From: Oscillospiraceae bacterium
Lineage (GTDB): Bacteria; Bacillota_A; Clostridia; Oscillospirales; Oscillospiraceae
Length of the DNA: 48,504 nucleotides
NCBI GenBank assembly: GCA_017381835.1
Contig: JAFOBK010000061.1
Location: forward strand, 1 to 48,504
Direction: 5' to 3'
Under the pieces are notes generated by a model. It was not told where the DNA came from. It was given only the letters and a program-made list of their open reading frames with translations, and searched no databases. The position numbers and the translations under genes were made by a program. This document shows, one piece after another, positions 10,182 to 31,844 of the stretch; the stretch's first letter is position 1, and each line of letters begins with the position of its first letter.

Positions 10182-10199
10182 TTTTTCTATGTGATCCGA

Positions 10200-10481
10200 T
10201 TATTTCTTATCGGTTTTCTTTTTTGCGGTGGTCAGCGCCATCTCGCCGTTCAGATACATTGCCACCAGACCCAGCAGGATCAGAATGGTAGATACCTTAA
10301 TGATATAGGGAATAATGCCCTTATAGATAACCGTACAAATGGCTGTAGCAGTTTCGCCGCCGATGATCAGCGCAGCCATATAGCCAAAGAAGGTCAGACC
10401 GCCTGCAAACAGGCAGATCATGATACCGGCGCCAAAAATAGTCTTCAGCACCTTGGAGATCTTCTTGCAAACTTCTTTCAT
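10200..10481 (-). CDS. Small membrane protein paired with TRAP-type permease, copy 1
   Basis: A 93-residue protein that starts 12 bases after the permease stop. Residues 1-15 are basic, about 17-43 form one hydrophobic span, about 50-80 one or two more, and the tail is rich in Lys. It is very similar along its whole length to the 97-residue protein at 12014-12307. It is shorter than the usual four-span TRAP small subunit DctQ (about 160 residues), but its fixed position beside a DctM-like permease suggests it fills that role; this is inference. I do not recognise the family name. Confidence 0.8.
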   Translation of the reverse strand: MKEVCKKISKVLKTIFGAGIMICLFAGGLTFFGYMAALIIGGETATAICTVIYKGIIPYIIKVSTILILLGLVAMYLNGEMALTTAKKKTDKK

Positions 10482-10493
10482 TGGATTACCTCC

Positions 10494-11855
10494 TTACAGA
10501 CCCAAAATGGGCAGCCAGCCCATCAGCACGACCACTTCCATAATAAACTGGGCAGCAACCCACCACAGATTGTTCTTGAAAGTCTTGTCAAAGTCAGACT
10601 CTGCCAAAGTCATACCGGCATACATGCCCAGGCCCAGGGGAGGCGTGATGCCGCACATAACGCCGCAGATGCAGGGCAGCATAGCAGCCACCAGCAGAGG
10701 ATCGCAGCCCACAGATGCCAGAGAGGTGATGAACATAGGTCCAAAGATAACAACAATGGAGGAGCCGGGAATAACCATGCCCATAAAGCAAGTGATGATA
10801 CAGACGGCAACCACAGTGCCAAATTTACCGAAGCTCCAGGAGGTGATAATCGCACCCAGTTCATCGGAAATGCTCAAGTCGTTGAACATTGCACCGATCA
10901 TATAGCCGAAGATGCACACGCCGATGGAAGGAGCCATGCTCTTGACGCTGTTGGCGAACATATTCACCAGGTTCTTGACGGACACAACCTTCTTATCGGG
11001 TGCGATCAGGCAAGTGTAGATAGAAGCCACACCGCCGATGAACAGCAGGATAGAGCTGGAGAAGTACTTGGCACCGTCCTTACCCAGGCGGGCAGTGAAG
11101 AAAGTATCCTTGAACAGGTAGTCCAGCACAAAGGGCAGCAGAATGATGACAGGCAGCAGCAGACCGCGCCAGCCGACCTTAAAGGTTTCCTTCAGGCTGG
11201 GCAGTTCTTCCTTGCTCATGGGCTTAACACCGTAATACTTACAGAAGCCCCAAACCATCAGCATTCTCTGAGCCACAAACCACAGAGCAATGCCCCACAG
11301 AATGATCCAGAACTGGCCGGTGGTCATGCTGCGCTCGGGATACAGCGCGACAAACGCACCCAGGGCAGCCACAATGTTGGAAGAGGGAGGAATCATATTG
11401 CCCATGTAACTTGCGTTACTGACAATATTGGCGCACAGCTCGGGAGGGAAGCCGGACTGCTTCATAGCAGGCACGGTAATGGAGCCGGTGGCCATAACAT
11501 TACCGGGACCGGAGCCGGAAAGCGCACCCATGAAGGAGCTGGCAATAACGGAAGCGTAGCCCGCACCGCCGGTCACACGACCCAGCAGCGCCAGAATTAC
11601 AGCGATGCAGCTATCGATCACCTTGGTCTTTGTCAGAATGATGGACATGGCCACAAAGGCGATCATGGAATACAGAAGAGAAGTGGAAAGCGCATCCTCA
11701 ATATACAGCAGAACATTGCCGGTAGTGCCGGTAATCACCAGCAGCAGAACAAAGCTCACCAGAACAGCCTCATACACAGGCCGCTTCAGCAGCACAAACC
11801 ATACGATGATGGCTGCCAGCATGATGCCCAAATACAGAATGGAAGTTGGAATCAT
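10494..11855 (-). CDS. TRAP-type transporter large permease subunit, copy 1
   Basis: A 453-residue, very hydrophobic protein with about 11-12 membrane segments. GALSGSGPGNVMATGSITVPAM (contiguous near residue 115) and the second-half repeat GMVIPGSSIVVIFGP / GITPPLGLGMYAG are typical of DctM-type TRAP permeases of organic acids. The ATG at 11855 (MIPTSILYLG) follows an AAAGGGAA site; the TTG six codons earlier is rejected. The usual periplasmic binding protein is absent from the whole locus. It has its own near-perfect promoter (11906-11934). The substrate is unknown. Confidence 0.85.
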   Translation of the reverse strand: MIPTSILYLGIMLAAIIVWFVLLKRPVYEAVLVSFVLLLVITGTTGNVLLYIEDALSTSLLYSMIAFVAMSIILTKTKVIDSCIAVILALLGRVTGGAGYASVIASSFMGALSGSGPGNVMATGSITVPAMKQSGFPPELCANIVSNASYMGNMIPPSSNIVAALGAFVALYPERSMTTGQFWIILWGIALWFVAQRMLMVWGFCKYYGVKPMSKEELPSLKETFKVGWRGLLLPVIILLPFVLDYLFKDTFFTARLGKDGAKYFSSSILLFIGGVASIYTCLIAPDKKVVSVKNLVNMFANSVKSMAPSIGVCIFGYMIGAMFNDLSISDELGAIITSWSFGKFGTVVAVCIITCFMGMVIPGSSIVVIFGPMFITSLASVGCDPLLVAAMLPCICGVMCGITPPLGLGMYAGMTLAESDFDKTFKNNLWWVAAQFIMEVVVLMGWLPILGL

Positions 11856-11905
11856 AGACAGGTTCCCTTTCAAATTTTAGACTTTTTCTTTTGCACAACG
11901 TTTTA

Positions 11906-11934
11906 ATTGTATATATTATGGAAAAGAATGTCAA
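11906..11934 (-). promoter_or_regulatory. Promoter of TRAP copy 1
   Basis: TTGACA (11929-11934) and TACAAT (11906-11911) are separated by exactly 17 bases on the minus strand, about 50 bases before the permease ATG. So copy 1 is transcribed independently of copy 2. Confidence 0.85.
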
Positions 11935-11963
11935 CTAGAATCTGCTGTTTTTCCGAAAAAGTT

Positions 11964-11997
11964 ATAGGACGTATTCCGTTTTCGAAATACGTCCTAT
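11964..11997 (-). terminator. Rho-independent terminator after TRAP copy 2
   Basis: 12-base arms (ATAGGACGTATT / AATACGTCCTAT) with a 10-base loop, followed on the minus strand by CTTTTTC. It lies 16 bases after the copy 2 small gene and before the copy 1 promoter. Confidence 0.85.
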
Positions 11998-12013
11998 GAA
12001 TCGTTGATAAAAT

Positions 12014-12307
12014 TTACATTTCGCCCTGATGTTTGCTTGCCTTCTTCTTGTTGGAAGTCAATGCCATTTCGCCATTCAGGTACATGGCAACCAAGCCCAG
12101 CAGCACCATAATCGTGGAAGCTTTGATGATGTAGGGAATCAATGTTTTATAAATAAACGTACAAATTGCGGTAGCTGTTTCACCGCCGATGAATAGTGCA
12201 GCCAGATAACCGAAAAAGCTCAAGCCACCGGCAAACAGGCAAAGCATGATGCCGTAGCCAAAAATCGTCTTCAATACTGCGGAGATTTTCTTGCAAACTT
12301 CTTTCAT
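12014..12307 (-). CDS. Small membrane protein paired with TRAP-type permease, copy 2
   Basis: A 97-residue paralogue of the protein at 10200-10481: both begin MKEVCKKIS and share GGETATAICT, PYIIK and LLGLVAMYLNGEMALT. The hydrophobic pattern is the same; the differences cluster in the last 12 residues. It again starts 12 bases after its permease. Conservation of both partners through the duplication indicates that the pair works as a unit. The function is not established. Confidence 0.8.
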   Translation of the reverse strand: MKEVCKKISAVLKTIFGYGIMLCLFAGGLSFFGYLAALFIGGETATAICTFIYKTLIPYIIKASTIMVLLGLVAMYLNGEMALTSNKKKASKHQGEM

Positions 12308-12319
12308 TTTCTTACCTCC

Positions 12320-13681
12320 TTACAGGCCCAGGATAGGCAGCCAGCCCATCAGAACGGCAACTTCCAGAATAAACTGTGCGGCAACCCACCACAGATTGTT
12401 CTTGAAGGTTTTATCGAAATCAGATTCTGCCAGGGTCATGCCTGCATACATACCCAATCCCAGAGGAGGAGTAATACCGCACATAACGCCGCAGATACAG
12501 GGCAGCATTGCTGCCACCAGCAGAGGATCGCAGCCTACATTTGCCAAAGTGGTAATGAACATAGGTCCAAAAATAACCACCAAAGAGGAGCCGGGAACTA
12601 CCATGCCCATAAAACAGGTGATCAGACATACGGCTACAACCGTACCCAGCTTTCCGAAATTCCAGGCAGTGATGATACCGCCCATCTCGTCGGCAACATT
12701 CAGTTCTCCGAACAGAGCGCCGATCATATAGCCGAAGACACATACGCCGATTGCAGGTGCGATGGTCTTGACACCGTCTGCAAACATCTTTGCAATTGCA
12801 GGAATCGTGACCTTGGATCTGTCCTTCGCGATCAAGCAGGCGTAGATGGAAGACAGGCCACCAATGAACAGCAGAATGGAACTGGACATGAACTTTGCAC
12901 CGTCTTTACCCAATCTTGCAGTAAAGAAGCTATCCTTGAACAGGTAATCCAGCACAAAGGGCAGCAGAATGATAACCGGCAGCAGCAGACCTTGCCAGCC
13001 TGCCTTCAGTGTCTCTTTCAGGTCGGGCAGCTCTTCCTTGTTCATAGGCTTGACCTTGTAGTATCTACAGAAGGCCCACACCATAAACAGGCGCTGGAAA
13101 ACGAACCACAGAGAAATGCCCCACAGGACAATCCAGAACTGTCCGGTAGTCATATTCAGCTCGGGATACAGAGCGGTGAACGCGCCCATTGCAGCCACGA
13201 TATTGGAAGAAGGAGGAATCATATTGCCCATGTAGCTGGCATTGGATTCAATATTTGCGGCCAGATGTGCAGGGAAACCGGAGCGTTTCATAGCGGGAAT
13301 GGTGATGGAACCGGTGGCCATAACGTTACCCGGGCCGGAACCGGACAGGGCTCCCATAAATGCGCTGGCTACAACTGCGGTATAGCCTGCACCGCCGGAA
13401 ACACGACCGATGACAGACAGGATCACCGCAATGCAGCTGTCGATGATCTTTGTCTTGGTGAGGATAATTGACATAGCTACAAAGGCAACCATTGAATACA
13501 GCAGCGATGTTGACAGCGCTTTATCCACATAGGTCCATACGTTGCCCCAAGTGCCGGTGATAGTCAGCAGCAGCAGGAAGCTGAGCAGCACAGCCTCGTA
13601 CACAGGGCGCTTCATGACAACGAACCACACAACGATCACTGCCAGCATAACACCCAAATAAAACAGAGAAGAGGGAATCAT
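12320..13681 (-). CDS. TRAP-type transporter large permease subunit, copy 2
   Basis: A 453-residue paralogue of copy 1 with the same length and motifs (GALSGSGPGNVMATGSITIPAM region, GMVVPGSSLVVIFGP, GITPPLGLGMYAG). The ATG at 13681 (MIPSSLFYLG) is preceded by AAAAAGGAG; the TTG two codons earlier is rejected. The C-terminal 90 residues are almost unchanged between copies, while the middle loop (around residues 300-330) differs, so the two may differ in substrate or in partner. It is divergent from the LysR gene and has its own promoter with a candidate LysR site. Confidence 0.85.
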   Translation of the reverse strand: MIPSSLFYLGVMLAVIVVWFVVMKRPVYEAVLLSFLLLLTITGTWGNVWTYVDKALSTSLLYSMVAFVAMSIILTKTKIIDSCIAVILSVIGRVSGGAGYTAVVASAFMGALSGSGPGNVMATGSITIPAMKRSGFPAHLAANIESNASYMGNMIPPSSNIVAAMGAFTALYPELNMTTGQFWIVLWGISLWFVFQRLFMVWAFCRYYKVKPMNKEELPDLKETLKAGWQGLLLPVIILLPFVLDYLFKDSFFTARLGKDGAKFMSSSILLFIGGLSSIYACLIAKDRSKVTIPAIAKMFADGVKTIAPAIGVCVFGYMIGALFGELNVADEMGGIITAWNFGKLGTVVAVCLITCFMGMVVPGSSLVVIFGPMFITTLANVGCDPLLVAAMLPCICGVMCGITPPLGLGMYAGMTLAESDFDKTFKNNLWWVAAQFILEVAVLMGWLPILGL

Positions 13682-13721: not shown

Positions 13722-13741
13722 ATATTACCTACGTGGAATAT
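13722..13741. promoter_or_regulatory. Candidate LysR-type operator
   Basis: ATATT and AATAT flank a 10-base centre in the divergent region, an inverted repeat of the T-N11-A kind used by LysR regulators. It touches the -10 box of the TRAP copy 2 promoter, so binding there would affect that promoter directly. Confidence 0.4.
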
Positions 13742-13767
13742 TATAGCGTGACTTTGAAATTTGTCAA
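13740..13767 (-). promoter_or_regulatory. Promoter of TRAP copy 2
   Basis: TTGACA (13762-13767) and TATAAT (13740-13745), both perfect consensus, separated by 16 bases on the minus strand, about 60 bases before the permease ATG. Confidence 0.85.
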
Positions 13768-13791: not shown

Positions 13792-13820
13792 TTGCTTTTT
13801 CCTGACTTTGCGGGTATGCT
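13792..13820 (+). promoter_or_regulatory. Probable promoter of the LysR gene
   Basis: TTGCTT and TATGCT are separated by 17 bases on the plus strand, 50 bases before the LysR ATG. Each box matches 4 of 6 consensus bases. Confidence 0.5.
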
Positions 13821-13869
13821 AATAATAAACATTTTTTGGGGTTATCATCGTTTTTCGGGAGGGCATTTT

Positions 13870-14766
13870 ATGAATTCGCGGCAACTGGAATATGCCATCG
13901 CATTGTCGGAAGTTTGCAATTTTTCACAAGTAGCTGAGAAGCTGAATATCTCTCAGCCTGCCCTCAGCAAGCAGATCTTAAGTTTGGAAAGCGAACTGGG
14001 TGTCAAGCTCTTTGACCGGTCTACCACACCGCTGACGATTACTCCCGCAGGGCAGCATTTTATCCAGCAGGCACAGGAGCTGCTTTACCGGGAAGATCAG
14101 CTGCTGCGGTCCATGGAAAAATATAAGACCGGCGAAGCCGGTCAGCTGTTAATCGGCGTCACGCCCTTCCGCAGCTCTTATCTGATCCCCGAAGTAATCA
14201 AGGCATTTCGGGATACCTACCCCAACATCCAGGTGAAGCTCCAGGAAGCAGGCAGCGATATTTTGCGCAAAGAAGCCGCCGAGGGAAAATATGACTTTGC
14301 GGTTGTAAATCTTCCGGTGGACGAGTCCCTGGTAGATGTCATTCCCCTGGAAGCAGACCGGCTGGCCCTGGTGGTCCCCCAGGAATGGATGCATCTGCTT
14401 CCGCTGGAGCCCGACTGCAAGGAGATCGATTTTAGTATCTGCAAGGAGCTTCCCTTTGCGGTTGTGCAGAAGACCCAGGAGATGCGCAAGCTGTTTGACA
14501 AACTGTGCGCCGCCAACAATTTCCAGCCCAATATCGCTGCGGAGGTAGTCAGCCTTACAACTGCCTGGGCTATGGCCTGCGCAGGCGTTGCCGCCACGAT
14601 TCTTCCTCTTCAATTTGTCAACCACCGCTCCCATGAGAGTAATCTCACGATCGTCGGTATCAAGAATGCCGCCCACACCCGTCAGCCGGTGATCATCACC
14701 CGCAGAGGGCAATACATCGCGCCCCATGCCCGCTATGCCATTGAACTGCTGACGGAAGGCAAATAA
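13870..14766 (+). CDS. LysR-family transcriptional regulator
   Basis: A 298-residue regulator. The ATG at 13870 (MNSRQLEYAIAL) follows GGGAGGG and gives the normal family start; the longer frame from 13792 covers its promoter. The winged helix-turn-helix is at residues 1-60 (FSQVAEKLNISQPALSKQI, ELGVKLFDR), followed by a linker helix and a two-lobed effector-binding domain (QLLIGVTPFRSSYLIPEVI). It is divergent from TRAP copy 2 with a shared 190-base control region, so it most likely regulates that permease in response to the transported organic acid. It ends in a strong terminator. Confidence 0.9.
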   Translation: MNSRQLEYAIALSEVCNFSQVAEKLNISQPALSKQILSLESELGVKLFDRSTTPLTITPAGQHFIQQAQELLYREDQLLRSMEKYKTGEAGQLLIGVTPFRSSYLIPEVIKAFRDTYPNIQVKLQEAGSDILRKEAAEGKYDFAVVNLPVDESLVDVIPLEADRLALVVPQEWMHLLPLEPDCKEIDFSICKELPFAVVQKTQEMRKLFDKLCAANNFQPNIAAEVVSLTTAWAMACAGVAATILPLQFVNHRSHESNLTIVGIKNAAHTRQPVIITRRGQYIAPHARYAIELLTEGK

Positions 14767-14779
14767 CTCCCCATAACAA

Positions 14780-14812
14780 AAAATCGCTGACCTTTGAAAG
14801 GTCAGCGATTTT
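14780..14812. terminator. Bidirectional terminator between lysR and the glycan operon
   Basis: 13-base arms (AAAATCGCTGACC / GGTCAGCGATTTT) with a 7-base loop and a T-rich run on the plus strand. It lies between the converging LysR gene and the last ATP-grasp gene and serves both. Confidence 0.9.
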
Positions 14813-14819
14813 CTTTTCT

Positions 14820-16046
14820 TCACTTCAGATCCGGAAGCAGGTCACGGCGCATGATATCATTGCCGTCCACATCCAAAACCTTCAGGTTTTCAACCGCTGC
14901 TCTATGCTTGCGGTTAAATTCCTCCAAAGTATCAGCCTGAACAGTGAAGCCGGCAATACGGTCACTGCTGCTTCTGACACCAAATACCTGGAAACCACGG
15001 GGACGCAGAGGCCGGAAATCGGTGATCATACCCTGCTCCAGCATCTGCTCAACACCCTCAAAACGGTCAAACACACCGGGTTTGCAGTAAATAAAGTCAT
15101 TGACAATATACTTGCTCTCAGGCTCACGCAGTTCCACATGGGGCTTCTCACCCACAGCCAGGTCAATCACAGCCTTGATTACATCAAAACCGCAGGAGCG
15201 CTTGATCAGCAAATATTTCATATTGCCGCCGGTTCTTGCGCAGAACTCCAGGACGGAAACTCGCTCGCCGGTGTTGATCATCTGAATCAGCATAGGGGCA
15301 TCCTTCAGCTGGAAGGCATCTGCGATCTGCTGGGCAACCACACGAATTTGCGCCATAATCTCAGGGCTTGCCGCCACGGGATAACGGCCGCGGAAGATGA
15401 TGAAACGGTCAGCATCCGCGATCTTCTCACTGTTGGAAACGCACAGCACCTTGGCTACGCCGTCTTCCACATAGACATCCACGCTGATCTCGGTGCCGGA
15501 TACAAACTCTTCCACGATCACACCGCCGGCACGGCTGATCTGGGCAGCTTCGCCGAAATAGAGCTCCAGTTCCTCAGGATTCTGCGCCTTACGGACACCC
15601 CGGGAGCTGTAGGCATCCACAGGCTTTACCACCAGGGGGTACTGCAGTTCCTTGATACGCTCCCAATCCAGTTCTGTCATTTCCACATGGCGGGAGGTAG
15701 GAATATTGTTCTCGTGGAAAATTTTCTTCATGTACTTCTTATCAGACACATTCTGGCCGGTCTGATAATCAATGTAACACGGCAGACCCAGCATCTCGGA
15801 AACCTGAGCCACCACCAGCAGCACCTGGTCTGCGCAGCAGGTGATCAGGAAATCTACATTCTCCTCTACTGCCAGGTTTTTCACTGCCTCAATATCAAAA
15901 ATAGCCATCTGATAGAACTTGTCTGCATAGGGTCTTGCCAATGCATTGGGATTACCGTCGATCAGAACCGTAGTAATGCCCCGTTCCTTCAGCTGATTGA
16001 TCAGTTCGATCTGCGCCAGACCGCCTGCAACAACCAATGCTTTCAT
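14820..16046 (-). CDS. ATP-grasp ligase, glycan cluster enzyme 2
   Basis: A 408-residue ATP-grasp protein, cytoplasmic. Residues 1-95 form a pre-ATP-grasp fold (MKALVVAGGLAQIELINQLK). The ATP-binding Lys segment is YPLVVKPVDAYSSRGV near 135-150, then VIVEEFVSGTEISVDVYV and the metal-binding stretch VLEFCARTGGN near 275. Proteins of this kind join a carboxylate to an amine or similar group through an acyl phosphate. The order of domains resembles PurK/carbamoyl-phosphate-synthase-like and L-amino-acid-ligase proteins; the substrate cannot be told. It is the last gene of the operon, 53 bases after the other ATP-grasp gene, and shares little sequence with it. Confidence 0.85.
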   Translation of the reverse strand: MKALVVAGGLAQIELINQLKERGITTVLIDGNPNALARPYADKFYQMAIFDIEAVKNLAVEENVDFLITCCADQVLLVVAQVSEMLGLPCYIDYQTGQNVSDKKYMKKIFHENNIPTSRHVEMTELDWERIKELQYPLVVKPVDAYSSRGVRKAQNPEELELYFGEAAQISRAGGVIVEEFVSGTEISVDVYVEDGVAKVLCVSNSEKIADADRFIIFRGRYPVAASPEIMAQIRVVAQQIADAFQLKDAPMLIQMINTGERVSVLEFCARTGGNMKYLLIKRSCGFDVIKAVIDLAVGEKPHVELREPESKYIVNDFIYCKPGVFDRFEGVEQMLEQGMITDFRPLRPRGFQVFGVRSSSDRIAGFTVQADTLEEFNRKHRAAVENLKVLDVDGNDIMRRDLLPDLK

Positions 16047-16099
16047 CGCTTATATACCTCACATTCGCACATTGTTTTATACCGAAAAAACCGGCAAAA

Positions 16100-17257
16100 T
16101 CAATGTCTTCTCTTATTCATGTTTTCCTTGTAGCCCAGCATCTTACCAAAGGTGTAAGTAAACCAGGGCAGGGGGTCATTGCGCCAGAATACCAGATCCA
16201 CCGTATTCTTCCAGCTGAACCAGGAGGGGTTTGCCTTGAAGCGGTTGGGGGACTTCACAAACCACATCACGTCACTCTGGGTATGTCTTGCCATCACGCC
16301 GAACTTATCGTTGGGAGGATAGACAGTAACAGGCACATCATGGCACAGTTCCATCTGCAGTCTAGCCACATTGAAGCCGCAGGCCAGGCTCAGCTTGATA
16401 CCGGCAGTGATACGGCCGTTGATTTCCAGCAGCATGGGCTTGCCGGTTTCCTTGTCGATCATAAAACCAACGTTGGCAAAACCGCGCCAGTTCATTGCCT
16501 TCAGCAGTTCGCCTGCGTGCTGCAGTGCCTCGGGTGCATCCACGGACTGAATAAGAACTGCGGTACCTGCATCGATGGGATACCATCTCAGAACGTCCTG
16601 GGCCATGGACATGGTCACATTATTGTTCTGATCCACGAACAGATAGGTACCGATTCGCTTATCGAAGCGGACAAACTCCTGGACAACATACTGATCCACA
16701 TCCAGCTCGCCGCTTTCCAGACGCTCTCTGAATTCTGCCTCGGTTTCAAACTTGTGGAAGCCGATGGAACCCACGCCGTTACGGGGCTTGATGATGATGG
16801 GGAACTTAGCATGGCTCAGGAAATCCTCGATATCCTGGTTCTCCCGTCTGGTATAGGGGCAGGGAATGCCGTTGTCCAGCGCCACCTCAAAGGTTCTCTG
16901 CTTATTGAAAGCCTGCTCGTAGGAAGAACGGGGTGCGCAGGCGATCTTCACATACTGCTTGATCTCATCTTCCCGCTTGGTGATCTTGTTGGTGGTCATC
17001 TCTGCAACAGGGAACAGCACATCGTACTTGCCGGTCTTCAGCTCAGCCATGAGCACATCCTCAAAGCCATCATAAGAACCGGCTCCGTCGGGATGCAGAA
17101 TCTTTGCATCGGGAAGACGGGAAACATAGCACACGTCCATCTTATGGGCGCACAGAACCGTAACATGGCAGCCGATCTCCTTCAGACCATGGAGCATGGT
17201 GAGGGTCTGTCTTGCGCCGCCGTCGGTCAGTAAAACCTTAACTTTGCTAAAATCCAT
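16100..17257 (-). CDS. ATP-grasp ligase, glycan cluster enzyme 1
   Basis: A 385-residue ATP-grasp protein from the ATG at 17257 (MDFSKVKVLLTDGG), preceded by AAGGAG. The ATP-binding Lys is in FPIIIKPRNGVGSIG near residues 140-155, followed by VVQEFV and the metal-binding segment PMLLEINGRITAGI near 270. The C-terminal WFVKSPNRFKANP and NDPLPWFTYTFGKMLG resemble ATP-grasp proteins of capsule and exopolysaccharide loci. Likely role: attaching an amino acid or other carboxylate to an amino sugar made available by the PIG-L deacetylase of the same operon. The reaction is inferred from neighbours. Confidence 0.85.
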   Translation of the reverse strand: MDFSKVKVLLTDGGARQTLTMLHGLKEIGCHVTVLCAHKMDVCYVSRLPDAKILHPDGAGSYDGFEDVLMAELKTGKYDVLFPVAEMTTNKITKREDEIKQYVKIACAPRSSYEQAFNKQRTFEVALDNGIPCPYTRRENQDIEDFLSHAKFPIIIKPRNGVGSIGFHKFETEAEFRERLESGELDVDQYVVQEFVRFDKRIGTYLFVDQNNNVTMSMAQDVLRWYPIDAGTAVLIQSVDAPEALQHAGELLKAMNWRGFANVGFMIDKETGKPMLLEINGRITAGIKLSLACGFNVARLQMELCHDVPVTVYPPNDKFGVMARHTQSDVMWFVKSPNRFKANPSWFSWKNTVDLVFWRNDPLPWFTYTFGKMLGYKENMNKRRH

Positions 17258-17290
17258 AATATTTTCTCCTTGACTGATAAACAATCTATA

Positions 17291-17992
17291 TCAGGCATTT
17301 TCTGCTGCGCCGAAAACGGCCAGCTCTGCCTCTTTTTCATATTTAGTATAGGGGAATTCCCGCTTCTTCTGCACGGCAATCTGGAAAATCAGCTGGACAG
17401 TTCTGAAAATGCAGTACAGATCCAGACCGACGCACATCTTCTCCACATAAAGGCTGGCCAGCTTATCACGCATGGGGGCAACCTTCTTGTCGAATTCCTC
17501 ATTGTCCTTGATGAACAGCTCGCCGTGGGCATAGTCATAGAGGCTGTCCAGGCAGGCAAGGCCGGGTCTGACGGTCAGTACGTTGTCATACTTACCTATG
17601 TAGTGCTTCTTGACACCGGCTTCCGTAATGGGTCTGGGGCCTACCACAGACATCTGACCCATCAGGATATTCAGCAGCTGGGGCAGTTCGTCCAGCTTGG
17701 TCTTGCGCAGGATGCCGCCGAACTTGAAAATGCGGTTTTCATTGGCAATATAGCCGCCTTCCCGCTTCTCACCGGCGCTCTTGTCCTCCGTTACGAACAC
17801 ATGCATAGAGCGGAATTTATACAGCACGAATTTCTTTCCGCCCTTGCCGATACGGTCAGCGCGGTAGAAAACCGGGCCTTTGCTGGAAAGCTTGATGCCG
17901 ATGGCAATGATGAGCCACACGGGAGAGGAAATCAAAATTGCCAGCAGGGATGCGCAGATATCAAAGGCGCGCTTGATAAAACGATAAACCAT
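17291..17992 (-). CDS. Initiating sugar-phosphate transferase (PglC/WcaJ-type)
   Basis: Transfers a sugar 1-phosphate from a nucleotide sugar to undecaprenyl phosphate, the first step of lipid-linked glycan assembly at the membrane. The 233-residue protein is the minimal catalytic form: one hydrophobic N-terminal reentrant segment (about 10-33), KFRSM (59-63), the catalytic Asp-Glu in KLDELPQLLNIL (99-110) and MSVVGPRP (114-121). A family-typical basic patch follows. GGGGAG precedes the ATG. This is the only glycosyl-transfer enzyme in the cluster, so it defines the first sugar; UDP-galactose, UDP-glucose or an N-acetyl sugar are possible. Confidence 0.93.
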   Translation of the reverse strand: MVYRFIKRAFDICASLLAILISSPVWLIIAIGIKLSSKGPVFYRADRIGKGGKKFVLYKFRSMHVFVTEDKSAGEKREGGYIANENRIFKFGGILRKTKLDELPQLLNILMGQMSVVGPRPITEAGVKKHYIGKYDNVLTVRPGLACLDSLYDYAHGELFIKDNEEFDKKVAPMRDKLASLYVEKMCVGLDLYCIFRTVQLIFQIAVQKKREFPYTKYEKEAELAVFGAAENA

Positions 17993-18005
17993 TTTCTCTC
18001 TCCCC

Positions 18006-18665
18006 TTACTTTGTTTCTCGGATCAGCATGAATGCTTCCGCAGCCTTCACATTGACCGTAGCGCCCCGCAGCTTTGCCAGGGCTTCATTGGCCTCCAAAG
18101 AGCGCAGGTCGGGGAATTCGCTGACCTGGGTTTTGAAGAAGTTCAGAGCCGTCAGCTTGCCTTCCAGGTAATCAGTAATGTCCACATAAACATTGGGGAT
18201 AAAAGAAAAGTTTTCAGTAGGCAGATTGATGCCGGTTTCAGACAGGGTCTCGTAGGCATAGATCCGCTTCACGGGATGATCATACTTAGACCGCAGCGCA
18301 ACCATGGCAGCATCGGTCACCATCTGATGATCCTTCTGCATATCACCCCAGAAAGGAAGATATACCTCTTCGGGCTGAACGTCCCGGATCACATCAAAAA
18401 ATGCTTTGTTAAATTCTCCTCTGGGGACATCTTCCAGATGGTTTGCCACAAAGGGCATGCCAATATAGCGGTCGATTCCGCAGTAGGCATGGGCCTGCTT
18501 CATCTCCTCATGGAGCCGTGCGGTACTGGCCGGCAGAACCTGACCTTCGCGGGCAGTAACGATGCACACCGTTACATGGTCACCGGCAGCTTTTCTCTTC
18601 AAAATTGTTCCGCCCACACCCAGGATCTCATCATCCCGATGGGGAGCAAACACCAAAATATTCAT
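18006..18665 (-). CDS. PIG-L/LmbE-family deacetylase
   Basis: A zinc-dependent N-deacetylase fold of 219 residues. The zinc motif PHRDDE (8-13) is a variant of PHPDDE, and the second ligand region reads FWGDMQKDHQ (about 110-120). Family members remove acetyl groups from GlcNAc-containing conjugates such as mycothiol, bacillithiol, GPI and glycopeptide precursors. Placed next to an initiating transferase and two ATP-grasp ligases, it may expose the free amine to which an amino acid is then ligated (inference). GAGG precedes the ATG. Confidence 0.88.
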   Translation of the reverse strand: MNILVFAPHRDDEILGVGGTILKRKAAGDHVTVCIVTAREGQVLPASTARLHEEMKQAHAYCGIDRYIGMPFVANHLEDVPRGEFNKAFFDVIRDVQPEEVYLPFWGDMQKDHQMVTDAAMVALRSKYDHPVKRIYAYETLSETGINLPTENFSFIPNVYVDITDYLEGKLTALNFFKTQVSEFPDLRSLEANEALAKLRGATVNVKAAEAFMLIRETK

Positions 18666-18685
18666 AGTTACCTCACAAATTATAT

Positions 18686-20119
18686 TTACGCATTTTCAGC
18701 GTTCTTTTTCTTTCTGTCCTTACGCAGTACCATGAAAATCAGATGTCTGAATTTCCAGGCTACAGCCAGGAATACTGCGCCGTATACCAGGATGCTCACA
18801 TACCGCAGCCATGTCACGCCATACAGGAAATTCACACCCAGCATCAGCAGGAGCATGCCCGCGATAGTCACAAACATCATCTTGACATCATATATATCAC
18901 CGCAGCCAAGCTTGCGGACGATACCGATATGGACAAGCAGCAGCAGAACATAGCTGATGCAGATGGAATAGCCGGATGCCACATAGCCGAAACGGGGCAT
19001 CAGGATATAGTTGAGCACCACATTCACCACCGCCGCACCGGCGCTGGCAAAGGCCATGCCCACAGTCTTCTTCTTGATCTGCTCCAGATTGACAAACAAG
19101 GTGCACAGGAACTGCAGTACACAGCACAGTGCGATAGGAGGCATAACATACTTTGCTTCCAAATACTGCTTGCCGCCCATAATCAGAAGAATTTCCGGGG
19201 CCAGGAGCATAATGCCAAAGGCAATAAAGACAAAACCCAGGATATAAAACTTTGTTACCTTCCGAATGCTTGCCCGATCATCCTCCGCCACCTTTTCTGC
19301 CAGCCAGGGAGAAAAGGCCATATTCAAAGAGGTCATCAGGAAAACAGCCATATGGCCCACGGTATAGGCCACACTGTACAGTGCATTGGTTGCCGCGCCA
19401 AACATCTTGGTGATCATCACCTTATTGCTGGCATGGAGTACTGACAGCGACAGCTGATGGGGAATGTAGGGAATAGAAATCTTCAGGGCGAATTTCCAGA
19501 AGGAGGGATCGATCTTCTTTCCGTTGCGGAACATGATGACCAGCAAAACCGCACCGATGAAGAACACAGGAACGGTATGACCCAGGATTCTGCCGGTCAG
19601 ACCGCTGTCCATGGTCAAAACCAGGATTACAGAAAGGACGGTAGTGCTGAATGCCATCAGCAGCGACACAAACACCGATTTTTTATACTGATACTGATAC
19701 CGTTCGCAAGCCTGGAACACATGCACAATGGTAATGAACAGGCAGTACACCAGCAGCAAATTGATGTGCAGCACGCTCATTTCCAGGAATGCCGACAATT
19801 GCTCAGAGAAGAGATTGCCCACAATCAGCCATAAGCCGGTGGAAATTGCGCTCAAGGTGAGGATAGAGAGGGCATACTGCTTAAATCTATCCTCATATTC
19901 ATATCTTGCACTGATCAGGCTGGACTCAATGTGCAGACCAACCAGGGTGATGGCGATATTCATCCAGGAAAGGAAGTTACTGAATTCGCCATATTCGCCC
20001 TTTGTGAGCAGTCTTGCAAAAATAGGTGTTGTGATAAAGCCCATACACTTGACCAGGAAGCTGGACAAGGTATACCATACACCGGATTTCAGGGCTTTGA
20101 TATTATTGTTCGGTTTCAC
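18686..20119 (-). CDS. Lipid-linked oligosaccharide flippase (Wzx/MATE-like)
   Basis: A 477-residue membrane protein with about 14 hydrophobic segments, beginning ALKSGVWYTLSSFLVKCMGF and IFARLLTKGEYGEFS, the usual opening of polysaccharide transport proteins. It moves undecaprenyl-linked repeat units to the outer face of the membrane. The start is a GTG whose bases overlap the stop of the upstream polymerase gene (GTGA), so the two are translationally coupled. It is 20 bases from the PIG-L gene. Confidence 0.9.
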   Translation of the reverse strand: MKPNNNIKALKSGVWYTLSSFLVKCMGFITTPIFARLLTKGEYGEFSNFLSWMNIAITLVGLHIESSLISARYEYEDRFKQYALSILTLSAISTGLWLIVGNLFSEQLSAFLEMSVLHINLLLVYCLFITIVHVFQACERYQYQYKKSVFVSLLMAFSTTVLSVILVLTMDSGLTGRILGHTVPVFFIGAVLLVIMFRNGKKIDPSFWKFALKISIPYIPHQLSLSVLHASNKVMITKMFGAATNALYSVAYTVGHMAVFLMTSLNMAFSPWLAEKVAEDDRASIRKVTKFYILGFVFIAFGIMLLAPEILLIMGGKQYLEAKYVMPPIALCCVLQFLCTLFVNLEQIKKKTVGMAFASAGAAVVNVVLNYILMPRFGYVASGYSICISYVLLLLVHIGIVRKLGCGDIYDVKMMFVTIAGMLLLMLGVNFLYGVTWLRYVSILVYGAVFLAVAWKFRHLIFMVLRKDRKKKNAENA

Positions 20120-21456
20120 TTTTTGATATTCCCTCGCTTAGATTTAAACCACAGCAGAATTTTCTGCCAGATACTAACCATTGTATTCTTACATTTACCG
20201 GCGAAATCGTCGGGTAAAATTCGCATTTGTGCGCCTTCGGTTGCGTATCCATACATCTGGAAACACACGAAGAACAGCATATAGAAGGTTCCGTGGGTAT
20301 GGGCTGTAAAGAAGGACAGCGCTACGATCACCAGCGTATACCAGAAGTTTGCGGAATTTACATTCCGCAGGCCCCGCAGATAGAACCAATAGGACAAAAT
20401 GACACCAATGATACCCTGCTTAAAGAGTGTGGCAAAGAAGCCGGCCACATTAAAGTCAAACTCGCTGACTTCCACATCCTTGGAATAGCCGATCAGGATA
20501 TCCCGGGCGGACATTTTTTTCAGATGGTTCAGGGTACGGCGCACTCTGCCTGCAATAGCCGTGGAACCGCTGTCGTTCACAAAAATTCTGTTCACGGTAT
20601 TGCGGACAATATCCACCGTAAAGTAGGCTACAATCAGCACACACAGGAACACCGCAATAATAATCAGCGTGCGCTTTGTAAACAGATTGGAAAACTGAGG
20701 TTCATTCCTCTTGTTGCCCTTTGCAGAATACAGCAAAATGTAAATTGCCCAAAAACCTGCCACAACTGCGATGCCCATGCCGGAAGTGGACAGCACCACA
20801 CCCAGGGACAGCACCGCCGCAGAAATAATTCTTCTGATGTTGATTTTCGGCGTAAACAGCAAAAAAGCAATGCTGGGGAAGAAGTAGAGGAACACATGGG
20901 AAGGCTCCAGGAAAAATCCGCTGGGGCGGTAAAATCCGCCGATTTTTGTGGAAGTAGATCTCTCCACCCAGCGCTCACTTTCCGCATGCAGGAGTTTGAC
21001 GGGAATTACCTGCAGCTTGAAGCGGATCACATAATAGCAAAAATATTGGATAAGCAGCACAACCGTGGCTGCCAGGCAAATATAGAACGCATAGCGAAGA
21101 ACTCTCTTCAGATCCACGCAGTCCAAGGCAATTGCGATATATACCAGTCCAAAGAAACCTGCATACAGAATGCGGGTAAAGGAAAAACCGCGGTTAATTG
21201 CCGTGTATCCCAAGAATAAAAGAATCGGAATAACCGTAAGCAAACGGTCTTTTTGCAGATTGGTAAGGGTTTTTGTTTCCACCACCTGCTTAACTGCATA
21301 GAAGAGTTTATAGAACAGAAATGCCGCTGCAATCAGAATTGCCGTGAAACCCGCATTTTCGTATAAACCTTTGTAATGCTGCAGAATCGGCGCAATCGCC
21401 AACACAACCGCAATTACAATTTCCGGGTTTATATACTTTTTGTTCACCTTCAGCAT
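20116..21456 (-). CDS. O-antigen/capsule polymerase-like membrane protein (Wzy-like)
   Basis: A 446-residue protein with about 11-12 hydrophobic segments. GFYRPSGFFLEPSHVF (about 174-189), inside a large external loop, is typical of O-antigen polymerase/ligase-type proteins (SGxFxEPS). It would join lipid-linked repeat units on the outside of the cell. GAGGAG precedes the ATG at 21456. It is the first gene of the operon and overlaps the flippase by 4 bases. Confidence 0.85.
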   Translation of the reverse strand: MLKVNKKYINPEIVIAVVLAIAPILQHYKGLYENAGFTAILIAAAFLFYKLFYAVKQVVETKTLTNLQKDRLLTVIPILLFLGYTAINRGFSFTRILYAGFFGLVYIAIALDCVDLKRVLRYAFYICLAATVVLLIQYFCYYVIRFKLQVIPVKLLHAESERWVERSTSTKIGGFYRPSGFFLEPSHVFLYFFPSIAFLLFTPKINIRRIISAAVLSLGVVLSTSGMGIAVVAGFWAIYILLYSAKGNKRNEPQFSNLFTKRTLIIIAVFLCVLIVAYFTVDIVRNTVNRIFVNDSGSTAIAGRVRRTLNHLKKMSARDILIGYSKDVEVSEFDFNVAGFFATLFKQGIIGVILSYWFYLRGLRNVNSANFWYTLVIVALSFFTAHTHGTFYMLFFVCFQMYGYATEGAQMRILPDDFAGKCKNTMVSIWQKILLWFKSKRGNIKK

Positions 21457-29340: not shown

Positions 29341-29373
29341 AAAACATCCAAGTTCCGGGAACTTGGATGTTTT
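29341..29373. terminator. Bidirectional terminator between lacI and feo
   Basis: 15-base arms (AAAACATCCAAGTTC / GAACTTGGATGTTTT) with a 3-base loop and a T-rich plus-strand tail. It ends both the regulator gene and the converging feo operon. Confidence 0.92.
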
Positions 29374-29378
29374 TCTTT

Positions 29379-29543
29379 TTACTTATGTCCGCAATGGCAC
29401 ATGCAACCGCTGCAATTGCCGCTGCAGGTTTTGGCATCCGGGCAGCCGATACACTTGGTGCCGTTTTTCTTGGCTTTGTAAATATAGAAAGCCGCACCGC
29501 CCATAATGGCCAAAAGAATAGCAATAATCAGATAATTAATCAT
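29379..29543 (-). CDS. FeoB-associated Cys-rich membrane peptide
   Basis: A 54-residue protein (MINYLIIAILLAIMGGAAF...) too short for usual gene finding. Residues 1-22 are one membrane span, followed by a basic stretch and a Cys/His-rich tail: KCIGCPDAKTCSGNCSGCMC and HCGHK, with seven Cys. This matches the FeoB-associated Cys-rich family found after feoB in many Firmicutes. The Cys-rich tail could hold or hand over ferrous iron; its role is not established. It starts 3 bases after the feoB stop, with only a weak GGAAAG site, so it is likely coupled to feoB. Confidence 0.9.
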   Translation of the reverse strand: MINYLIIAILLAIMGGAAFYIYKAKKNGTKCIGCPDAKTCSGNCSGCMCHCGHK

Positions 29544-29546
29544 AGG

Positions 29547-31541
29547 TTATTTCTTTCCGGCAAATTCTGCCTTCAGCTTGTTATCTGCATTGATACACAG
29601 AAATACTACAATACCGACCATGATCACCACAGCCATCAGGCCGCCGAAGAAGCCGGTGCCCACGCTGCCGGTAGCAATGAGGGTACCGATCTGATAGACC
29701 AGGAAACCCAGGGTATAGCCTACACCCAGCTGCAGAGCGATGCCGCCGAACAGCCACTTCTTGTCCTTGATTTCTGCATTCATAGCGCCGATGGCAGCAA
29801 AACAAGGGGGAGTAAACAGATTGAACATCAGATATGCCAGGGCAGCAGCCTTGGTAAGCGCAAAGACAGCAGCAACTTCCATGCCTGCGCCCTCTGCCAT
29901 TTCCAACGCCTCCGTATCAATCAGATTGGAGATGCCGTAGCAAACTGCCAAAGTGCCCACCACATTTTCCTTAGCGATAAAACCGGTGACCGCTGCCGCA
30001 GCCATCTGCCATGCCTGAATGCCGATAACAGGCACCAGAACAACCGCAATGGGATTGGCAATAGAAGCCAGAATAGAAGTGTGGGCTGCATCTTCAGCCA
30101 CCAGCTGGAAGCTCCAGTCAAAGGACTGCATAATGAAAACGACGGCATTGCACAACAGGATGATGGTACCTGCCTTGACGATGTATGCCCAGCCGCGGCT
30201 GCACATATCCATAAATGCCCGCTTCAGGGAGGGGAGCTTGTATTCCGGCAGTTCGATGATGAAGAAATTCTTCCGATTCTTGTGGCCTGCGATCTTATTA
30301 ACCAACAGAGCGCACAGCAGAATCAGCACAATACCCACAAAATACATCAGTGTACCTACCCAGGAAGCATCGCCAAAGAATGCGCCGGCAAACAGAGCAA
30401 TGACCGGCAGCTTTGCGCCGCAGGGCATGAAGGGGGTCAGCATGGCGGTGGCATTGCGCTCACGCTCATTGCGGATGGTACGGGCAGCCATAACACCGGG
30501 GATCGCACAGCCGGTACCCACGATGAAGGGAATGACAGACTTGCCGCTGAGGCCTACCTTCTTAAAAATAGGATCCAGCACAACGGTAGCACGGGCCATA
30601 TAGCCGCAGTCTTCCAGCAGAGAGATCATGAAGTACATGACCATAACCAGAGGCAGGAAACCCACAACGGCGCTGACACCGCCGATGATACCTTCTGTCA
30701 GCAGCGCAACCAGGAAGTCGTTGCCGCCATCCAGCAGACCGCCTACCCACTCCTTAAACGCATCAATCCAGCCAACCAGGTAGTCGGCGATCCAGGGGCC
30801 TACCCAAGCCTGGGAAATCTGGAACACCAGGAACATGACACCGGCAAAAATCAGCAGACCGCCGAGGGGATTGGTCAGAACCGCATCAATATCGTCCTGG
30901 AAGTTCTTGTCCCGGGTCAGTACCTTGCGGGTCTCAACCGCTTTCACAATGCCATTGACAAAGGCAAAGCGCTTACGGTCCACAGTTTCTACGGCTTTCT
31001 TATCGGTCAGGTCGATATTCTCCTGGACATAAGGAGCCTTCTGACTCTTTCCTGCCAGGGAGGCTGCAGCCTTCACGACTTCAGCCAGACCCTCACCGGA
31101 GATGGAAGCGGTCTCCACCACCGGGCAGCCCAGCTTTTCAGACAGCTTCTTGGTGTCGATCTGTGTCTTTTTCTTCTCGTTGATATCAGCCTTGTTCAGC
31201 GCAACAACCATCGGAATACCCAGTTCCAGCAGCTGGGTTGTAAAAAACAAGCTGCGGCTCAGGTTCGTTGCATCCACAATGTTGACGATTACATCCGGCT
31301 GCTTATTGGTAACATAAGCGCTGGTGATGCTCTCTTCCGAAGTAAAAGGAGACATGGAATAGGCACCGGGCAGGTCCACTGCCATCAGCTCCTGATCTGC
31401 TGCATATATCTTCTTAATGGGGGCTGTTTTACTATCCACCGTAACGCCTGCCCAGTTACCCACCTTTTCATTACTGCCGGTAAGGGCATTGTACATAGTG
31501 GTTTTACCACTGTTAGGATTGCCTGCAAAAGCAATTCTCAT
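29547..31541 (-). CDS. feoB: Ferrous iron transporter B
   Basis: A 664-residue membrane GTPase that imports Fe2+. The ATG at 31541 (MRIAFAGNPNSGKTT) follows AGGAGG. G domain: G1 GNPNSGKT (7-14), G2 GVTV, G3 DLPGAYS, G4 NKAD, G5 ASISGEG. The membrane part has two Gate-type halves with the conserved VGTGCAIPGVMA and FMPCGAKLPV Cys motifs that line the iron path. Length is typical of short FeoB forms without C-terminal extension. It lies between feoA and the Cys-rich peptide and is controlled by the feoA promoter. Confidence 0.96.
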   Translation of the reverse strand: MRIAFAGNPNSGKTTMYNALTGSNEKVGNWAGVTVDSKTAPIKKIYAADQELMAVDLPGAYSMSPFTSEESITSAYVTNKQPDVIVNIVDATNLSRSLFFTTQLLELGIPMVVALNKADINEKKKTQIDTKKLSEKLGCPVVETASISGEGLAEVVKAAASLAGKSQKAPYVQENIDLTDKKAVETVDRKRFAFVNGIVKAVETRKVLTRDKNFQDDIDAVLTNPLGGLLIFAGVMFLVFQISQAWVGPWIADYLVGWIDAFKEWVGGLLDGGNDFLVALLTEGIIGGVSAVVGFLPLVMVMYFMISLLEDCGYMARATVVLDPIFKKVGLSGKSVIPFIVGTGCAIPGVMAARTIRNERERNATAMLTPFMPCGAKLPVIALFAGAFFGDASWVGTLMYFVGIVLILLCALLVNKIAGHKNRKNFFIIELPEYKLPSLKRAFMDMCSRGWAYIVKAGTIILLCNAVVFIMQSFDWSFQLVAEDAAHTSILASIANPIAVVLVPVIGIQAWQMAAAAVTGFIAKENVVGTLAVCYGISNLIDTEALEMAEGAGMEVAAVFALTKAAALAYLMFNLFTPPCFAAIGAMNAEIKDKKWLFGGIALQLGVGYTLGFLVYQIGTLIATGSVGTGFFGGLMAVVIMVGIVVFLCINADNKLKAEFAGKK

Positions 31542-31592
31542 AAATTTTTGTCCTCCTGTCAATTCCAGTTACCTATTGCTAACTGCCGAGCA

Positions 31593-31616
31593 AAAGACAA
31601 TCAGCGGATTGTCTTT
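31593..31616 (-). terminator. Stem-loop between feoA and feoB
   Basis: Perfect 10-base arms (AAAGACAATC / GATTGTCTTT) with a 4-base loop, followed on the minus strand by TTTTGC. A partial terminator or mRNA-stabilising structure within the operon. Confidence 0.6.
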
Positions 31617-31631
31617 CACAAACGCCGTTTC

Positions 31632-31844
31632 TTACACGATAATGGCTTGTGCCAGCTGAGAATCAATGCTGTATCTGCCGTCTTTCACAGACACCACACA
31701 GCTGCCCCGACGGCGGGATACCACCGTGATGGGTTCGCCGCTGTAGCAGCCCAGTGAAAACAGAAACGCATTCAATTCCTCATCGTCTGTTTCGATCCGC
31801 TGAATGATGTACTCTTTGCCTTCCTGCGCGGTCCACAAATTCAT
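31632..31844 (-). CDS. feoA: Ferrous iron transport protein A
   Basis: A 70-residue SH3-like protein from the ATG at 31844, with GGGTGG upstream; the GTG three codons earlier overlaps that site. The core FLFSLGCYSGEPITVVSRRRGSC and the closing YSIDSQLAQAIIV are typical FeoA strands. FeoA supports FeoB activity at the inner face of the membrane. First gene of the feo operon, directly downstream of the tandem DtxR boxes. Confidence 0.9.
   Translation of the reverse strand: MNLWTAQEGKEYIIQRIETDDEELNAFLFSLGCYSGEPITVVSRRRGSCVVSVKDGRYSIDSQLAQAIIV

Follow-up and report, generated by a model that had tools for sequence, protein, structure and literature searches.

We have examined a six-gene operon on the minus strand (14820-21456) of contig JAFOBK010000061.1 from an Oscillospiraceae bacterium (assembly GCA_017381835.1), the whole 48,504-nt stretch being referred to here as the window. 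The operon encodes a WaaL/Wzy-fold enzyme (POL), a Wzx-type flippase (FLP), a PIG-L type de-N-acetylase, a phosphoglycosyl transferase (PGT) and two ATP-grasp ligases (AG1 and AG2). From comparative sequence analysis we tentatively propose, at somewhat below even probability, that this operon directs the synthesis of a surface glycan diversified by acids and not by added sugars: the ligases would N-acylate a lipid-linked amino sugar before it is flipped, and the acid used by AG2 would be either imported or home-made. A preliminary description of the same DNA had already suggested that the initiating enzyme makes a lipid-linked sugar, that the deacetylase exposes an amine and that the ligases add amino acids or other acids to the sugar, giving a polymer matching no named system. 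In our analysis the sugar-ligase scheme and the recurrence of the gene set found support, whereas the lack of a named match, the amino acids (for AG2) and the polymer were not supported as worded.

To place the operon among its relatives, a profile search for AG2 yielded 59 loci in 59 genomes, whose genes were called and grouped into families by script. These genomes belong to Clostridia and to Bacteroidales/Bacteroidia, plus one Kiritimatiellae and one Planctomycetia metagenome-assembled genome (MAG). AG2 is rare: in the family to which genome G003 belongs, 2 of 300 genomes have it, namely G003 itself and G154. Natural fusions connect both ligases with the PGT. Four PGT-AG1 fusions (P0256, P0260, P0263, verified with Pfam, and P0271) were found among 120 listed of 624 AG1 homologues, and PGT-AG2 fusions occur in two of the 59 AG2 loci (L040 and L050). 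Moreover, PIG-L and PGT genes lie beside AG1 in eight of nine contexts (the window, L011, L028, L110, L111, L112, L114 and L115), the lone exception being L113, a 4.4-kb contig with a different gene upstream of AG1. Members of this triad were labelled by their best blastp match (29-47% for PIG-L or PGT in L112, L114 and L115); their order differs in L112, and an epimerase-like gene is interposed in L114. Because of the fusions and the recurrent triad, the proposal that PGT makes a lipid-linked sugar, that PIG-L exposes its amine and that the ligases would act on that same sugar is supported.

A phylogenetic tree of 52 PGT rows, from which one of the 42 F1-family PGTs (168 aa) was excluded for its length, separated the eight triad PGTs and the four AG1-fused PGT domains from the 40 others with a branch support of 100/99. 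Since triad and fused PGTs share one branch, the window PGT appears to be of the AG1 kind and AG2 to be an addition. The long branches flagged for L036, L114 and L115 weaken this placement. AG1 was detected in 6 of the 59 AG2 genomes versus 2 of 391 class genomes, both of the latter at half score. A PGT gene accompanies AG2 in 44 of 59 loci and a DegT aminotransferase gene in 41. The gene order of L011 (DegT-PIGL-PGT-AG1-AG2), together with the frequency of DegT in AG2 loci, suggests one amine source per ligase, the DegT half of which is absent from the window. In L110, AG1 and AG2 belong to separate sugar modules within one locus. As a separate observation, AG2 directly follows a run of DegT, nucleotidyl transferase and epimerase-dehydratase-like genes (families F15, F21 and F6) in L009 and L026, one gene away in L018 and L032, and three genes away in L006, as if AG2 in these five loci acylated a nucleotide-linked amino sugar.

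The nearest solved relatives of AG2 are 4dim and the L-amino acid ligase BL00235 (3vot), to which the AG2 profile aligns over positions 74-392 (E 4e-29). The C-terminus of AG2 also resembles the LAL_C2 domain: the window protein scores 27.6 bits against a gathering score of 29.4, the precomputed domains of the identical protein P0001 include LAL_C2, and the AG2 fusion proteins of L040 and L050 exceed the cut-off. This likeness, the presence of two ligases for a single freed amine and the lack of DegT in the window would all agree with a sequential process, in which AG1 joins an amino acid to the amine of the sugar, to be lengthened by AG2 into a short peptide. We regard such a peptide-bearing sugar as unlikely, because most AG2 genomes have no AG1 and the two ligases of L110 are in separate modules. 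In addition, unlike L-amino acid ligases, AG2 is accompanied by a nearby PGT in most loci and by a linked acid pathway that includes no aminotransferase among its seven families.

We then considered the origin of the acid. In other loci, the slot beside AG2 is often taken by a LysR gene together with the genes for a DctM-type transporter subunit (family F4) and its small partner (F3), or by a seven-gene cassette encoding MmgE/PrpD, AKR, a phosphonopyruvate-decarboxylase-like protein (Ppd), the conserved ∼300-aa protein F16 (L015:14794-15696), a C-C lyase and the fumarase-type beta and alpha proteins (FumB and FumA). This neighbourhood points to a carboxylic acid, coming from a lyase/decarboxylase/hydratase pathway or through a DctM-type transporter, as the substrate of AG2, in place of the amino acids previously suggested. 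Genome-wide searches found F4 in 39 and F16 in 22 of the 59 AG2 genomes. In background samples, from which the AG2 genomes G003 and G154 (family) or G003 and G014 (class) had been removed, F4 was present in 7 of 298 family and 9 of 184 class genomes, and F16 in 9 of 298 and 4 of 184, respectively. The corresponding Fisher p values were 5e-30 (F4, family), 9e-22 (F4, class), 1e-12 (F16, family) and 7e-12 (F16, class), figures that are tempered by the counts from related MAGs being not fully independent and, for the class comparison, by the class and phylum samples not having been searched themselves for AG2. Overall, 52 of the 59 AG2 genomes carry F4 and/or F16 versus 14 of 298 family genomes, and among these 59 the two markers are negatively associated (9 with both, 30 with F4 only, 13 with F16 only, 7 with neither; p = 0.004). 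Among 148 Bacteroidota genomes, three contained F16, and one of these three belongs to the AG2 genomes.

At the level of gene order, F4 lies four genes or fewer from AG2 in 23 of the 59 loci. A single LysR-led run, LysR-F4-F3-MmgE-AKR-Ppd-F16-C-C lyase-FumB-FumA, is present in L084, L092 and L098, and therefore ties transporter and pathway together. It appears improbable to us that the two merely travel with AG2 on shared genomic islands, as unrelated passengers or as a catabolic unit: besides the enrichment in AG2 genomes over both background samples, the F4-F3 pair stands immediately upstream of PGT in six loci (L041, L046, L049, L051, L058 and L059), cassette genes are intermingled with those of other AG2-like ligases in L087 (the same place as L062, in one genome) and in L117, and the one fetched F4 stretch that lacks F16, L091, has a different ATP-grasp gene alongside. 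Several observations nevertheless weigh against a link between the acid and AG2, and some of them favour the passengers. Only 10 of the 59 fetched AG2 loci include F16. Of 17 further F16 stretches (8 from background and 9 from AG2 genomes), 6 carry a labelled ATP-grasp gene (L083, L087 and L092-L095) and 11 do not (L084, L085, which is a 4-kb contig, L086, L088, L089, L090 and L096-L100), the proportion being 2 of 8 in the background genomes; labels here came from blastp against our own gene set, which could miss other ligases. Because of these 11 stretches, the acid pathway may have other uses, general or catabolic, or may run degradatively. Nine AG2 genomes have both markers and the seven with neither are all MAGs. 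Within the window, the lack of DegT and of a PF02719-like dehydratase means that the amine for AG2 is not evident there, and in the absence of a DctP partner of F4 the choice of import over export is a guess. Finally, F16 gave no sequence match in Pfam, NCBIfam or PDB, and its structural model was poor (mean pLDDT 59.7).

Two assignments for the cassette were discarded. A fold search with the poor F16 model returned only weak TIM-barrel-like matches and was not used. A phosphonate pathway, suggested by a match to TIGR03297 (phosphonopyruvate decarboxylase), was rejected since none of the seven scanned cassette representatives matched a PEP mutase family.

No glycosyltransferase was recognised in the operon or among 36 of the 39 called window genes, in agreement with the compact, glycosyltransferase-free six-gene operon initially described. 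Two plus-strand frames antisense to called genes (10191-11906 and 29367-31757) were excluded from these counts. In this respect the operon departs from the Wzx/Wzy-dependent pathway, although it likewise encodes a PGT and a flippase together with a WaaL/Wzy-fold enzyme. POL of the window's family is present in twelve gene sets, the window counted among them. The stretches spanning POL and AG2 in the window, L001, L002, L015 and L029 have all their genes family-labelled, by a Pfam match of the gene itself or of a fellow family member, and none of the labels is a glycosyltransferase. Thus, the window set is not unique: the stretches of four relatives combine the same functions without a recognised glycosyltransferase. 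L015, from Hungatella effluvii DSM 24995, has the order dehydratase-DegT-PGT-POL-FLP-AG2-MmgE/PrpD-AKR-Ppd-F16-C-C lyase-FumB-FumA, with an open AKR reading frame; two genes that were not scanned, coding for 115 and 146 aa, flank it. The L029 stretch is bounded by gaps of 559 and 332 bases; that of L002 by a 294-base gap after a short-chain dehydrogenase fragment and, at the other side, by a reversed LysR gene; and that of L001 precedes a glutamine synthetase gene and another gene truncated at the end of the contig. L012, L003, L023, L024, L025 and L028 were left out of this count owing to contig or flank cuts or unlabelled genes.

The operon could instead be part of an ordinary capsule locus split over the genome, with glycosyltransferases encoded elsewhere completing a normal repeat unit. 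Glycosyltransferase genes do accompany some triads, namely GT2 genes near those of L110 and L112 and a polysialyltransferase-like gene (PF07388) in L011, which counts against a glycosyltransferase-free pattern; they do not always travel with the set, as none was recognised in other relatives. Loci of this type usually encode their glycosyltransferases within the operon, and the four stretches of L001, L002, L015 and L029 lack a recognised one as well. We therefore consider a split capsule locus less probable than not, though a serious contender.

A partial precedent for the acylation step, and with it a mechanistic counterpart that rules out the lack of a named relative, is provided by Neisseria. 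According to the available portions of two reports (PMC11130364, PMC6959607), PglB2 is an ATP grasp/phosphoglycosyl-transferase that yields a glyceramido acetamido trideoxyhexose on undecaprenyl diphosphate (Und-PP), PglC and PglD supply the amino sugar, PglF flips the Und-PP monosaccharides and PglO transfers them to protein. As far as these portions go, the window system appears to resemble PglB2 in mechanism at the acylation step, that is, in coupling a PGT to the ATP-grasp N-acylation of an amino sugar with a small acid, followed by a flippase and an outer transferase; the likeness is one of described mechanism, and membership is not claimed. The window differs in that PGT and ATP-grasp are separate genes (fused in relatives), in the presence of two ligases and a PIG-L deacetylase, in lacking the dehydratase and the DegT aminotransferase (both present in L015) and in a POL without a Pfam match. 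In the window an acid supply is linked to the ligase, and none is mentioned for PglB2 in the available text of PMC11130364 and PMC6959607. Literature searches, which covered few subscription papers, did not find the gene set described. The ligase step has a precedent, whereas those searches turned up no account of the two-ligase operon without glycosyltransferase or of the make-or-import supply of acid. Plasmid searches returned only remote relatives of AG1 and AG2, all below 60% identity, and a PHROGs search gave nothing useful.

The closest fold to POL is WaaL, a ligase, and we take PglO to be of the same WaaL-like class; the absence of PglL/PglO-type structures from the fold matches listed speaks neither for nor against them. 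Because this fold is common to polymerases, ligases and protein-glycosylating enzymes, the polymer of the preliminary description is unsupported as written. POL might instead, like PglO in Neisseria, hand a single acylated amino sugar over from the lipid to protein or cell wall. The L015 set (dehydratase, DegT, PGT, WaaL-fold family, flippase and ATP-grasp) resembles the neisserial pgl core, so far as the latter is described in the portions cited above, and no chain-length gene was recognised by Pfam in the window operon. On the other hand, POL matched no Pfam family, PglL-type models included, and chain-length-like genes (F38, labelled by eye and unscanned) in L011 and L110 leave room for longer glycans there. 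Single-sugar glycosylation is thus plausible yet somewhat unlikely. A true polymer formed without glycosyltransferases, in which POL would join acylated amino sugars through the hydroxyl of the acid so that sugar and hydroxy acid alternate, the acid being synthesised in-operon in Hungatella or imported through DctM in the window, seems to us a doubtful, low-probability variant. Separately, the 621-aa POL homologue P0162 is fused to a hexapeptide acyltransferase domain, a hint that acylation and the WaaL-fold enzyme act on the same unit.

Taken as a whole, a surface glycan diversified by acids would be assembled as follows. The PGT, judging from its family, would place a HexNAc (N-acetylhexosamine)-type sugar 1-phosphate on the lipid carrier, and PIG-L, by family and motif, would unmask an amine. 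AG1, the usual partner of the window's PGT branch according to fusions, triad and tree, would re-acylate that amine. A further carboxylic acid would be attached by AG2: its acceptor is probably a DegT-made amine in many relatives, whereas the window shows no DegT gene and an amine of the first acyl group might serve there. The acid would come through the neighbouring LysR-flanked DctM-type transporter in the window, with which AG2 is associated and whose direction is presumed to be inward, and from the associated seven-gene cassette, putatively a biosynthetic pathway, in Hungatella. Once decorated, the lipid-linked sugar would be flipped by FLP and, outside, polymerised or transferred by POL with its WaaL fold. 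If this is true, gut Clostridia and Bacteroidales would extend surface glycans with a ligase-plus-acid module that swaps acid synthesis for import, so that the cell coat could depend on acids in the surroundings, and the operon would be a compact example in which a flippase and a WaaL-fold enzyme process a lipid-linked unit of one sugar without further glycosyltransferases. Hungatella effluvii DSM 24995 offers a named strain with a related set, and the seven-gene acid pathway, whose core protein F16 is unclassified, is of interest in its own right.

Regarding the individual genes, FLP starts with a GTG that overlaps the POL stop codon (GTGA). PIG-L exceeds its Pfam gathering score (68.2 versus 28.2 bits), its PHRDDE being an HxDDE-type motif; PGT is above the gathering score of its family and contains KLDELPQ; and the ATP-grasp domains of AG1 and AG2, two remotely related ligases, are both above gathering.

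Features of the window operon and of the adjoining transporter region
Feature	Position	Strand	Basis
POL, multi-spanning WaaL/Wzy-fold enzyme (polymerase or transferase), 446 aa	20116..21456	-	fold; no Pfam match
FLP, Wzx-type flippase	18686..20119	-	PF01943, 82.4 bits
PIG-L type de-N-acetylase, 219 aa	18006..18665	-	PF02585, PHRDDE motif
PGT, minimal phosphoglycosyl transferase, 233 aa, PIG-L/AG1-associated branch	17291..17992	-	PF02397, 167.3 bits; tree
AG1, ATP-grasp ligase, 385 aa, family with natural PGT fusions	16100..17257	-	PF02655, 46.6 bits
AG2, ATP-grasp ligase, 408 aa	14820..16046	-	PF13535, 52.9 bits
Palindromic terminator-like hairpin between AG2 and LysR gene	14780..14812	.	scan lists + strand only
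LysR-type regulator, convergent with AG2, divergent from transporter gene	13816..14766	+	PF00126 and PF03466
Consensus promoter TTGACA-16-TATAAT, upstream of transporter gene	13740..13767	-	12/12 matches
DctM-type transporter subunit, family F4, putative AG2-acid importer	12320..13681	-	PF06808; linkage
Small partner protein, family F3, 97 aa, adjoins F4	12014..12307	-	gene grouping
Second DctM-type subunit copy	10494..11855	-	PF06808; 80% identical to first
Second small partner protein copy, 93 aa	10200..10481	-	gene grouping

The DctM-type gene and its small partner are duplicated in tandem in the window (10200-13681), the LysR gene adjoining the first copy only. F4 resembles TRAP transporters in its match to DctM and differs from them in that no DctP substrate-binding protein matched among 36 of the 39 called window genes and that the partner F3 has no Pfam match.

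In the Bacteroidales loci (L023, L024 and L025, with L093, L094 and L095), extra ATP-grasp genes (PF14397 and others) accompany the acid cassette; no glycosyltransferase was recognised among the genes scanned, some genes being unlabelled, and L024 includes a PGA_cap capsule protein. L003, which shares the POL and FLP families of the window, carries acyl-carrier-like and AMP-ligase-like genes (L003:2979-5270; labelled by eye and unscanned) beside a hexapeptide acyltransferase and LicD.

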